Of a stretch of 54,412 bases of DNA, positions 1,968 to 54,412 are shown piece after piece (the stretch's first letter is position 1; the number at the start of each line of letters is the position of its first letter). The DNA is from Terriglobia bacterium. GTDB taxonomy: Bacteria; Acidobacteriota; Terriglobia; JAIQFV01. The stretch lies in NCBI GenBank assembly GCA_020072965.1, contig JAIQFY010000034.1:1-54412 (forward strand), given 5' to 3'. The translations under genes and the position numbers were made by a program. The notes under the pieces are model-generated. The model worked only from the letters and a program-made list of their open reading frames with translations, ran no database searches and was not told the DNA's origin.

Positions 1968-3230
1968 ATGAGCTACGACTTTCAATCAGAGCACTTCTGG
2001 AACCCCTCAGCCATCGAGAAGGAAGAGCGCCGGGTGTACGACCTTTGTAACGGTTGCCGGCGCTGCTTCAACCTGTGCCCTTCATTTACGGAGTTGTTCA
2101 ACCGCCTCGATGAGGAACGGGTTGACGGAGACGCTGAAAAGTTGAATGCGGAGGATTTGAAAGTCGTCGGAGACGACTGTTTTCAGTGCAAGCTCTGTTA
2201 TAACCATTGTCCCTACACTCCGCCTCACGCCTGGAAGATTGATTTTCCCCGGATGATGCTTCGCGACAAACTCGTGAAAACCCGTCAGCAGGGAGTTTCA
2301 CTTCAGGATAAATTCCTTGCCGAGACCGACCTGATTGGTCGACTGGCATGCTGGACGGCTCCGCTCTTCAACTGGTTGAGCCGGAATGGGCTCCACCGGC
2401 TCCTGATGGAAAAGGTAGTGGGAATCCATCGCCGCTGGCCGCTGCCCGCTTATTCGTCACAAACCCTTTCGGGATGGATGAAACAACGCCGGGGGGCGAA
2501 TGTGGAAGCTGCCGGCAACAAACGCAAGGTCGCGCTCTTTTCCACCTGTTCGGTGAATTACAGTGACGTGGAGACCGGCAAAGCACTGGTCCTTATCCTG
2601 GAGAAGAATGGGATTGAAGTGGTAGATGGTTACAAACGCTGCTGTGGGATGCCGGCGTTGGATGGCGGAGATTTGAAATCCGCCCTCAGGGATGCCGCAG
2701 AAAACGTCGAGTTCCTTTCCGAGAAGGTTCGCGCCGGATACGACGTGGTCATTCCCGGCCCGACTTGCAGCTACACCTTCAAGCAGGAATACCCCTTGCT
2801 GTTAAAATCGGAGGATGCTCGGCTGGTGGCCGAACACACCTTCGACAGCTGCGAATATCTGATGAAGTTGCATCAGGAAGGGGCGCTCAACACCCAGTTT
2901 GTCTCCAAGCTCGGGACGGTTTCATATCAGTTATCGTGCCATTTGAAAGCACAAAACCTGGGTTATAAATCACGCGATCTGCTGCAATTGGCCGGCGCCC
3001 GGGTCCAGGTCGTGGAACGCTGTTCAGCGGTGGACGGGACATGGGGAATGAAGCAGCAGTACCATGACCTTTCCCTTAAGCTTTCCCAACCCCTGTTGAA
3101 AGAAGTCCAGGAACCGGCCCCCGAGTTTATTGCCACCGATTGCCCGCTTTCTGCCCTGCGAATCAAGCAGGGGACGGGACGCGACGCGCTGCATCCTGTA
3201 AGAATCTTTGCCAAGGCCTGCGGATTATGA
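1968..3230 (+). CDS. Fe-S oxidoreductase with CCG domains (HdrB/GlpC-like)
   Basis: A 420-aa soluble protein with two N-terminal [4Fe-4S] ferredoxin-like motifs (CNGCRRCFNLCP at residue 28 and CFQCKLCYNHCP about 40 residues later). Two CCG-type cysteine-rich segments follow, typical of heterodisulfide reductase subunit B and glycerol-3-phosphate dehydrogenase subunit C. The first has RCCGMPALDGG; the second has a diverged cysteine pattern (YQLSCHLKAQNLG, ERCSAVDGTWG). Such proteins pass electrons between carriers and thiol/disulfide or protein partners. The gene follows rubrerythrin and overlaps the next gene by 4 bp (ATGA), so it is cotranslated with the DUF3501 gene. A role as electron donor to the rubrerythrin is inference from gene order. 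Confidence 0.88.
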   Translation: MSYDFQSEHFWNPSAIEKEERRVYDLCNGCRRCFNLCPSFTELFNRLDEERVDGDAEKLNAEDLKVVGDDCFQCKLCYNHCPYTPPHAWKIDFPRMMLRDKLVKTRQQGVSLQDKFLAETDLIGRLACWTAPLFNWLSRNGLHRLLMEKVVGIHRRWPLPAYSSQTLSGWMKQRRGANVEAAGNKRKVALFSTCSVNYSDVETGKALVLILEKNGIEVVDGYKRCCGMPALDGGDLKSALRDAAENVEFLSEKVRAGYDVVIPGPTCSYTFKQEYPLLLKSEDARLVAEHTFDSCEYLMKLHQEGALNTQFVSKLGTVSYQLSCHLKAQNLGYKSRDLLQLAGARVQVVERCSAVDGTWGMKQQYHDLSLKLSQPLLKEVQEPAPEFIATDCPLSALRIKQGTGRDALHPVRIFAKACGL

Positions 3231-3832
3231 AAAAAATTACCGTGGAAGACATCAGGAACCTTTACGAGTATGAAAAAATTCGGGACGAATTCAGGAGTCA
3301 CATCATCTCCCTCAAACAACATCGACGGCTCCCGGTGGGCGACAAGGTGTCTCTCGTATTTGAGAACAGGGAGACGGTCAGGTTTCAGGTCCAGGAGATG
3401 ATTCGCGCTGAACGGATGGTCGACGAACGCCGGATCCAGGACGAGATTGAAGTCTACAATCAAATCCTGCCGGACACCGGCGAGTTAAGCGCCACCCTGT
3501 TTATTGAAATCACCACTCCGGCCGACATCAAACCGGAACTGGACCGCTTCCAGGGGGTGGACCGGGGTGACTGTGTTTTTTTTGAAATGGGAGGACTGGC
3601 CCGCGTGTATGGGCGATTCGAGGAAGGGCACAGCAAGGAGGACAAGATCAGCGCCGTCCAGTACGTCCGTTTTCCCTTTACCCGGGAGGAGCAAACCTGG
3701 TTCCGCGACTCCACCGTGCCGCTTGCCCTGGTCATCGACCACCCCCATTATGCCGCCCGGACTTCGATTACCGCGCAACAGCGAGAGGCCCTGGCCCGGG
3801 ATTTTGAGGAAGCCTCCGTGGGAGTCGGGTAG
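3227..3832 (+). CDS. DUF3501 family protein
   Basis: The start is the ATG at 3227, which overlaps the previous stop codon; this gives 201 aa beginning MKKITVEDIRNLYEYEKIR. The sequence matches what I know of DUF3501: a conserved charged N-terminus (FRSHIISLKQHRRLPVGDKVSLVFENRETV), a middle VQEMIRAERM, and a C-terminal VRFPFTREEQ segment ahead of LVIDHPHYAARTSI. The function is unknown. DUF3501 genes commonly sit beside rubrerythrin and CCG-domain Fe-S genes, as here, suggesting an accessory or assembly role in that redox unit. No signal peptide or membrane helix is seen, so it is probably cytoplasmic. Confidence 0.85.
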   Translation: MKKITVEDIRNLYEYEKIRDEFRSHIISLKQHRRLPVGDKVSLVFENRETVRFQVQEMIRAERMVDERRIQDEIEVYNQILPDTGELSATLFIEITTPADIKPELDRFQGVDRGDCVFFEMGGLARVYGRFEEGHSKEDKISAVQYVRFPFTREEQTWFRDSTVPLALVIDHPHYAARTSITAQQREALARDFEEASVGVG

Positions 3833-52689: not shown

Positions 52690-52826
52690 GTTCTTGGATG
52701 AGCAACAGCCCATTTAGACCCGACCCCCCAGATAAACTCAGATAAACTAGGGACAGCCACGAATGGCACTAAGTTAAGGGGTTGACAATCTGAATTAGCC
52801 AAATCCCTGAAAGGGATTCATTCAAC

Positions 52827-53128
52827 AGCCCAGGGCATCGCCCCATAGGCGCTAACCTAAGACCGGAGTAATGAGCGGCCCATAATCCCTCCGGCGGAAG
52901 CCGGGGGAAAGTTCAGGTACAACCTACGGCAGCGATCCCATTTTCATTGTCTCCCCCCCATCCCGCGAAGCGGGATGGGGGGGTGTAGTTTGTTTTTGAA
53001 GCCTGAGTTTGTGGGCTGTACTTGAACTTTCCCCCAGCTTCCGCTGGGGGGATTCGACAGAACCGTCCCCCTCCCCCTTTAAAATCAATCCTCTTTAGGT
53101 TAACGCGTATGGGGCATCGCCTTGGGCT
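52827..53128. repeat. Long fold-back (inverted) repeat with central 14-bp hairpin
   Basis: Outer arms 52827-52861 and 53093-53128 are complementary with a few changes. Inner arms 52884-52920 and 53018-53054 differ by only 4 of 37 positions. At the middle, 52953-52966 and 52970-52983 form a 14-bp perfect stem with a GAA loop. The two ends thus fold toward one another along some 300 nt, like a MITE-type element. Confidence 0.8.
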
Positions 53129-53261
53129 TGAAATCCTCTAATCTTCCCGAATCCGCCGAGGTGGATTCCCCAAGACACAGCCTGTTGTCTGATCTCGCCG
53201 GGGTGGGGTCAGCACAAATCAGCGGGCTTCATAACCCCTGGGCCATCGGCCCACGCTGGGC

Positions 53262-53390
53262 GGGTGGCGCACACATGCGCTCTTGGCATGTGTGCGGCGT
53301 TTTCTGAAGGAGATCTCCTTATGAGGGTAGAGTGCAGTCCGACTCTCCACCGCACACATCCCGCCAAGGCGGGCGATGTGTGCGCCACCC
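53262..53390. repeat. Paired hairpins of the GGGTGGCGCACACAT family
   Basis: Hairpin 53262-53297 (GGGTGGCGCACACATGCGC... GCATGTGTGCGG) and its inverted counterpart 53350-53390 (CCGCACACATCC...ATGTGTGCGCCACCC) each fold on themselves and also pair with one another. A self-complementary AAGGAGATCTCCTT lies between (53307-53320). Related wording occurs at about 11885-11912 and 18255-18300. Confidence 0.8.
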
Positions 53391-53485
53391 AGTCCTCCCT
53401 GCAAGACTCGCTACGGCTGGGGGGCTAAGCCTTTCTCGACCGGGACTCTCACCCGGCAAGCTGACGCCAAGCTTCCTTGGCGCAC
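53390..53485 (-). ncRNA. Possible 5' fragment of a group II intron
   Basis: On the minus strand GTGCGCC (53485-53479) is the usual first stretch of bacterial group II introns. It is followed by a CGGGTGAGAGTCCCG stem (53455-53441), the common domain I motif, and CAGCCGTAGCGAGTC. No reverse-transcriptase ORF or domain V is visible; the domain breaks off at a GGGTGGCGC hairpin. The frame 53319-53621 across it is spurious. Identification rests on motif resemblance only. Confidence 0.4.
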
Positions 53486-53769
53486 AGATGTGTGACCCTC
53501 GCGATTCATGAGCTGCTCTTGAACTATCTCGCGTAGCAGCTAGTCCTCCACCGACCCTATCGGGTTGAGCCTCGCGCCCGCAAACGGCGCCCCAAAAACT
53601 TTCCGCTGTTAACCGCACCACGAAAACTGTATAAAGAAATCCATCACCGAAATCAGTACCGAAAAAACCCTTAACTTAGTGCCATTCGTGGCTGTCCCTA
53701 TTTTTTGTGAGTTACCTTGGTCCGACCCCAAACATTCATGTTCAGTGGCCGGATCGCGGGGCTAACGGC

Positions 53770-54252: not shown

Positions 54253-54321
54253 GGGTGTTGGTCGACGCAATGGTTAAAAAGAAGAATAAAAAAGGGGTCA
54301 GATCCTATGAACGGTCGGGAT

Positions 54322-54346
54322 GACCCGAAAGAGCGGGTCGTTTTTT
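54322..54346 (+). terminator. Hairpin plus T-run ahead of the right repeated gene
   Basis: GACCCG (54322-54327) pairs perfectly with CGGGTC (54334-54339), and GTTTTTT follows. It precedes ATG 54393 by 47 bp and would block transcription entering the element. Confidence 0.6.
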
Positions 54347-54392
54347 GGTAAGCTCCTTGGCAGCAGAGACAATTTTTTCAAAGGAGCCTACG

Positions 54393-54412
54393 ATGAGTAA
54401 ACCAACGACCCG
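54393..54412 (+). CDS. 5' end of repeated gene, probable transposase (partial)
   Basis: ATG 54393 opens MSKPTTR and runs off the end. AAGGAG lies 7 bp upstream. It is the inverted twin of the gene at 34-1 (MSKSTTRSTKY), differing in one of the first seven residues. Confidence 0.45.

Follow-up and report, generated by a model that had tools for sequence, protein, structure and literature searches.

Anatomy of a nested island

Near the right end of the window (the whole 54,412-nucleotide stretch of DNA analysed here) lies an island of about 950 bp, which is a nested stack of at least five decayed mobile-element pieces rather than a single element. It is enclosed by a perfect inverted repeat of 33 bp (52748-52780 and 53668-53700), one base longer than the 32 bp given in a preliminary description, which sits within a 49-nt pair at 92%. 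Inside are a long fold-back (52884-52927 and 53011-53054, 44 nt, 86%), a central hairpin of 14 bp (52953-52966 and 52970-52983) and paired hairpins (53262-53276 and 53376-53390, 15 nt, 100%), and every repeat named in that description is present. Folding was far above chance both for the 268-nt element inside the stack (z = -9.9) and for the second hairpin (z = -7.2), with none of 200 shuffles as good in either case. The suggestion of a stack of non-autonomous elements was borne out, as each layer was found separately elsewhere and one contig of the same genome (C9) holds a copy of the outer element without the 268-bp insert. The preliminary description had matched the island to no family, a gap that is now largely filled by the IS4 family, RAYT/REP sequences, a group II intron and a Y1-linked family of terminal inverted repeats (TIRs). 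All copy numbers given here are minima ("at least"), because several contigs end within these repeats.

The outermost layer is a shell of IS4 type. The 33-bp repeat is composed of the 13-bp tag TAGGGACAGCCAC and of 20 bp that contain the 19-bp terminal repeat GAATGGCACTAAGTTAAGG. On the left, the tag (52748-52760, +), which is the usual target of the outer IS4-type element in the genus, is followed by the TIR of an IS4-family element (52761-52779, +) and the left part of an IS4-type MITE of about 400 bp (52761-52843, +; 99% to C9 over 52759-52843) that continues at 53112-53262 (+; 85% to C9). On the right are a C-terminal relic of an IS4-family transposase (53501-53668, +; 56 residues, 50% identity, one TAG stop), the right TIR (53669-53687, -) and an inverted GTGGCTGTCCCTA tag (53688-53700, -). 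This relic qualifies the earlier statement that the island is without a protein gene.

The terminal repeat GAATGGCACTAAGTTAAGG occurred 38 times in the genome at up to two mismatches, compared to 0 times for its reversed control, and among the matches listed it was found in many Gammaproteobacteria, Cyanobacteria and Verrucomicrobia. Elsewhere it bounds 1.55-kb elements with IS4-family (DDE) transposases and many MITEs of 110-400 bp, and direct duplications of 10-12 bp (about 11) flank 47 elements of this TIR family, all of which the family shares with the IS4 family (NF033592, DDE_Tnp_1). The window copy differs in being an apparent hybrid remnant that has no direct duplication and holds only the transposase C-terminus. 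The TIR family differs in its target duplication, whose consensus outside the own genus is GGGWCWG across several phyla (loci L084-L192). The strict form was present in 10 of 40 cases outside the genus, compared to 0.3% of random 12-mers, and in seven of seven within it, where duplications were oriented by the G content of positions one to four, a choice that inflates these positions. GGGWCWG is a strong target preference of the IS4-type elements with the outer TIR, for which we found no earlier description. By description, the own-genus tag TAGGGACAGCCAC and the GGGWCWG duplication resemble GGGGWSAS, a motif published for the TIRs that accompany TIR-associated tyrosine transposases (PMC3733652, PMC6006769). 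Downstream of the island, a ggggtcagatcc motif of the GGGGWSAS type lies at 54282-54300, and on its other side 52720-52728 reads gacccgacccc. The last ~120 bases of the window (54294-54412) have four matches in the sister species at ~82%, two of them near contig ends, and probably mark the beginning of a further multi-copy element.

The preliminary description had proposed looking for target duplications at the ends; these are present as direct repeats around the inner MITE, while at the outer ends the flanking tags are inverted and there is no direct duplication of 9-13 bp. The right half of the outer copy matches an IS-type end at C18 with 94% identity, and this end encodes a transposase C-terminus. 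Since a simple insertion would leave a direct repeat, whereas the tags here are inverted, the outer shell appears from its sequence to be a hybrid, its left half of MITE type and its right half of IS type, the latter with the last ~56 transposase codons. We infer that this hybrid arose from two insertions into an inverted tag pair. At the start of the proposed history, an IS4-family-type element with the TIR GAATGGCACTAAGTTAAGG would have resided in GGGACAGCCAC tags.

The right half of the island holds two further pieces. Positions 53262-53390 are a REP doublet (BIME-like, with GGGTGGCGCACACAT arms) of the tyrosine-transposase (RAYT) family, a class defined by hairpin units that stand beside Y1 genes and are dispersed in the genome; the 36-nt unit of this doublet is also found next to the RAYT genes of C36 and C84 in the same genome. 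The segment that had been called group II intron-like is real and is probably a piece from the 5' end of such an intron, starting GTGCGCC (53402-53485, -), of which 53402-53483 (-) matches a Thiodictyon plasmid locus at 81%. That locus has an Rfam group II D1-D4 hit (RF02005, E = 1e-27), a maturase gene and a weak domain V match, whereas the window holds the intron 5' end only and has no Rfam match of its own. Nothing but this intron fragment matched in the plasmid collection that was searched. In the proposed history, the RAYT-type REP doublet and the intron fragment would occupy the right half of the pile.

The inner MITE and its palindromic targets

Within the outer MITE lies a second, fold-back MITE of 268 bp (52844-53111, +). 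It consists of a left TIR (52844-52862, +; consensus CATNNGCGTYAACCTAAGA), a REP unit made of a hairpin and a conserved tail ending CCTAC (GTAGG on the other strand; 52884-52927, +), a central perfect hairpin, CCCCCCCATCCCGC-GAA-GCGGGATGGGGGGG (52953-52983), which is the kind of palindrome that the MITE itself targets, a second, inverted REP unit (53011-53054, -; 44 nt, 86% complementary to the first) and a right TIR (53093-53111, -). BLAST found 35 copies in the genome with 84-97% identity across most of the element, and three remnants that are TIR-only or shortened bring the count to 38, in contrast to the absence of other copies that the preliminary description had named as a refutation of its reading. 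In the alignment of copies the TIRs and the two inverted REP-like units are conserved and the central hairpin is variable. The element has the properties of a MITE, being short and non-coding with ~19-bp TIRs, 35-38 dispersed copies and direct duplications of 9-11 bp in 18 copies. No match to it was found in 28 more distant relatives, and the insertion at C11 shares its left flank with a copy in the sister species. REP units related to those of the MITE are solitary in two related genomes and flank RAYT genes at C22 of the own genome. Five copies (L007, L009, L018, L022, L030) have another palindrome (GACGCC CGCCGCGGCGGG...) at their right end instead of the usual TIR tip. IS66 and IS1595 were weighed as the source of the MITE by their termini and set aside, as their 8-bp duplications do not fit.

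The target of the inner MITE could be read directly from the window. Its left flank is GGGCATCGCC(C) (52833-52843, +), the centre of the palindrome CCCAGGGCATCGCCCTGGG, and its right flank is the second copy of the duplication, GGGCATCGCCT (53112-53122, +). At C9, where the outer MITE has no insert, a single intact palindrome stands at this position. Direct target duplications were found in 18 of the 24 MITE copies that have both ends, and in 17 of these 18 the duplication is centred on a palindrome to within half a base. The stems of the target palindromes had on average 8.4 of 10 positions paired, compared to 5.4 (sd 1.0) at random flank positions, and 24 of 25 insertion entries (one copy counted twice) fell outside open frames of 150 codons.

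The duplications measure 9 bp with 3-nt loops and 10 bp with 4-nt loops. Odd palindromes of the form CGC-NNN-GCG gave 9 bp, even palindromes gave 10 bp (n=3 only) and GGGC-NNN-GCCC gave 11 bp, or 9 bp if the terminal C/G pair is assigned to the element. With that one boundary choice, every duplication fits 3 bp of stem, the loop and 3 bp of stem. A symmetric cut forces the parity of the duplication to equal that of the palindrome, and therefore the real observation is the symmetry about the hairpin. Some copies are flanked by inverted instead of direct palindrome tips, both in the own genome (L003, L017) and in relatives (G183a-c and G020a; L334, L370, L366, L362).

Members of the IS3, IS4, IS5, IS110 and IS256 families are known to target REPs, and IS1397, ISKpn1, IS621 and ISPpu9/10 likewise insert within REP palindromes (PMC1525189). 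Unlike these, the MITE family hits the exact centre of several palindromes of unrelated sequence, and its 9-11-bp duplications track loop length. At another locus of the own genome (L283, C99), a Y1 gene lies among arrayed units of ~44 nt, GCCCTGAAAGGGC...CCCAGGGCAACGCCCTGGG. Of the palindromes in these units, the second is one of the target classes of the MITE and also occurs in the window, within the outer IS4-type MITE.

A wider TIR family and its Y1 genes

The TIR core of the MITE, CATNNGCGTYAACCTAA, is present across the class, in 13 of 399 genomes and in other families as well. A backwards control gave hits in 7 genomes, but these were single, whereas true CATNNGCGTYAACCTAA hits were multiple and paired. 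The pairs lie 116-747 bp apart and enclose interiors that are unrelated between genera, and they again sit at palindrome centres.

Two of these TIR elements enclose broken Y1 genes. One (L363 in genome G020, 2742-3488, 747 bp) has a frameshifted Y1_Tnp gene between its TIRs (E = 5e-17), and G020 also contains shorter elements with the same ends. The other, G183c (L366 in genome G183, 2215-2932, 718 bp), has a Y1 relic between its TIRs (E = 3e-7), and the 116-bp element G183a is an internal deletion derivative of it with identical ends. By motif comparison, the signature of Y1 subclass 1.2, Y---Q--HH, is present in L363 (YIKRQQEHH) and nearly so in G183c (YIRRQDEPH). At L364 (G020, C169), a REP palindrome inside a TIR element marks the start of an ORF that by eye resembles a transposase of IS110 type (MNTDKYIGMDVHSE), a further case of insertion into a palindrome.

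The own genome (G000, 5.9 Mb) has 36 Y1_Tnp matches, at least seven of them with the Y...Q..HH motif. This is an unusually large repertoire of tyrosine-transposase genes, and several families of palindromes surround them (L281-L290). None of the eight own-genome Y1 loci that were examined carries the MITE TIR. The search for an autonomous partner in this genome gave no pair of TIRs that exceeds the MITE in length, and no intact Y1 element with the CATNNGCGTYAACCTAA TIR was found. A half copy of the MITE beside a Y1 gene at C3 was considered as the autonomous form and rejected, since it is truncated and has no second TIR past the Y1 gene.

These elements can be compared with three described groups. 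Like TIRYTs or TIRtrons (PMC3733652), the family in G020 and G183 has a Y1 gene between long TIRs, and its TIRs make repeat families; the window copy is gene-less. Published TIRYTs are mostly of subclass 2.1, with an HTH and GGGGWSAS TIRs (PMC6006769), whereas here the gene is IS200-like with Y...Q..HH, the TIR reads CATNNGCGTYAACCTAA, and insertion takes place at palindrome tips and is accompanied by duplications. By motif, L363 and seven own-genome proteins resemble TnpA Y1 subclass 1.2, which differs in that it has been reported to lack, in general, the end structures typical of IS200 and to come mostly from Cyanobacteria and Bacteroidetes (PMC6006769). IS200/IS605 elements have no TIRs, subterminal hairpins and no duplication, whereas the inner MITE has both TIRs and duplications.

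Possible routes of MITE movement

We tentatively propose that the class-wide CATNNGCGTYAACCTAA family is moved by IS200-like HUH enzymes of the subclass 1.2 type, with duplications equal to the loop plus 6 bp. A transposase of the Y1 (HUH) type, akin to IS200-like proteins, would recognise the MITE ends in trans and would act on both strands of the target palindrome to give a staggered opening whose width is set by the hairpin. Since both strands of a palindrome carry the same site, the duplication would span the tip and its length would follow the loop. At this locus, the 268-bp MITE would have entered the centre of a 19-bp palindrome in the IS4-type element, with duplication of the palindrome tip. 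We infer that the 268-bp copies are moved by a Y1 enzyme and that a paired-nick step is involved. We know of no target duplications in IS200/IS605-type Y1 transposition, and the inverted tips that flank some copies count against the Y1 model and are explained by no simple model. The joint reading, a nested pile with a 268-bp MITE derived from a hairpin-targeting Y1-transposase element, seems to us rather probable.

The main and serious rival retains the same nested anatomy but ascribes movement of the MITE to an unseen DDE transposase that strongly prefers palindromic REPs and has a stagger of 9-11 bp, the Y1 genes being passengers. We regard this as possible, given that TIRs with 9-11-bp duplications are the classical DDE signature and that REP targeting is documented for the five IS families named above (PMC1525189); the two Y1 genes could then be REPtrons captured by an element that is moved otherwise. 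The DDE_Tnp_1 search of the genome returned only four matches, however, none at a locus that carries the MITE TIR, and C15, the sole DDE_Tnp_1 locus that has a pair of long terminal repeats, carries a different TIR. In relatives, Y1 genes are the only recognisable genes found between TIRs of the MITE family. The observed duplication length also tracks loop length, whereas DDE enzymes usually have a fixed stagger.

Expansion as an ordinary REPIN/BIME, in which a RAYT acts on the inner REPs and the TIRs and tip duplications are incidental, is improbable. The MITE does contain an inverted pair of REP hairpins, which is the REPIN layout (PMC3116915, PMC2817692) and is also seen in the REP doublet at 53262-53390, and its inner units match the REPs beside RAYT genes at C22. 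The MITE nevertheless reaches past its REPs to long TIRs, which are the boundaries of its copies; the TIR is common to several families and the REPs are not, and elements in genome G002 have the TIR and a tip duplication with no REP match. Least probable by far is the other possibility raised in the preliminary description, a single functional element in which all the repeats together form a folded RNA or DNA. The strong folding of the whole favours it, but this reading is unsupported because the layers differ in origin and copy number, and it is already refuted by the presence of every layer alone elsewhere with other copy numbers and flanks. A search of the whole window gave no Rfam family at threshold, a permissive search of the island gave no usable match, and the stack as a whole was seen at one place only. 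An orthologous empty site of the island was sought in the sister species and none was recovered, because synteny stops at a GGDEF gene.

The island shows how repeat-rich intergenic regions build up, with each new layer entering a repeat that was brought by an older one. If the proposed Y1 route is true, hairpin geometry would set the target duplications, a mode not known for Y1 enzymes. For the subclass 1.2 Y1 enzymes, the TIR, the MITE and the target palindrome now offer a concrete and testable candidate substrate. If this is right, REP palindromes would be both cargo and landing sites, tied to a form of transposition with hairpin-set duplications.
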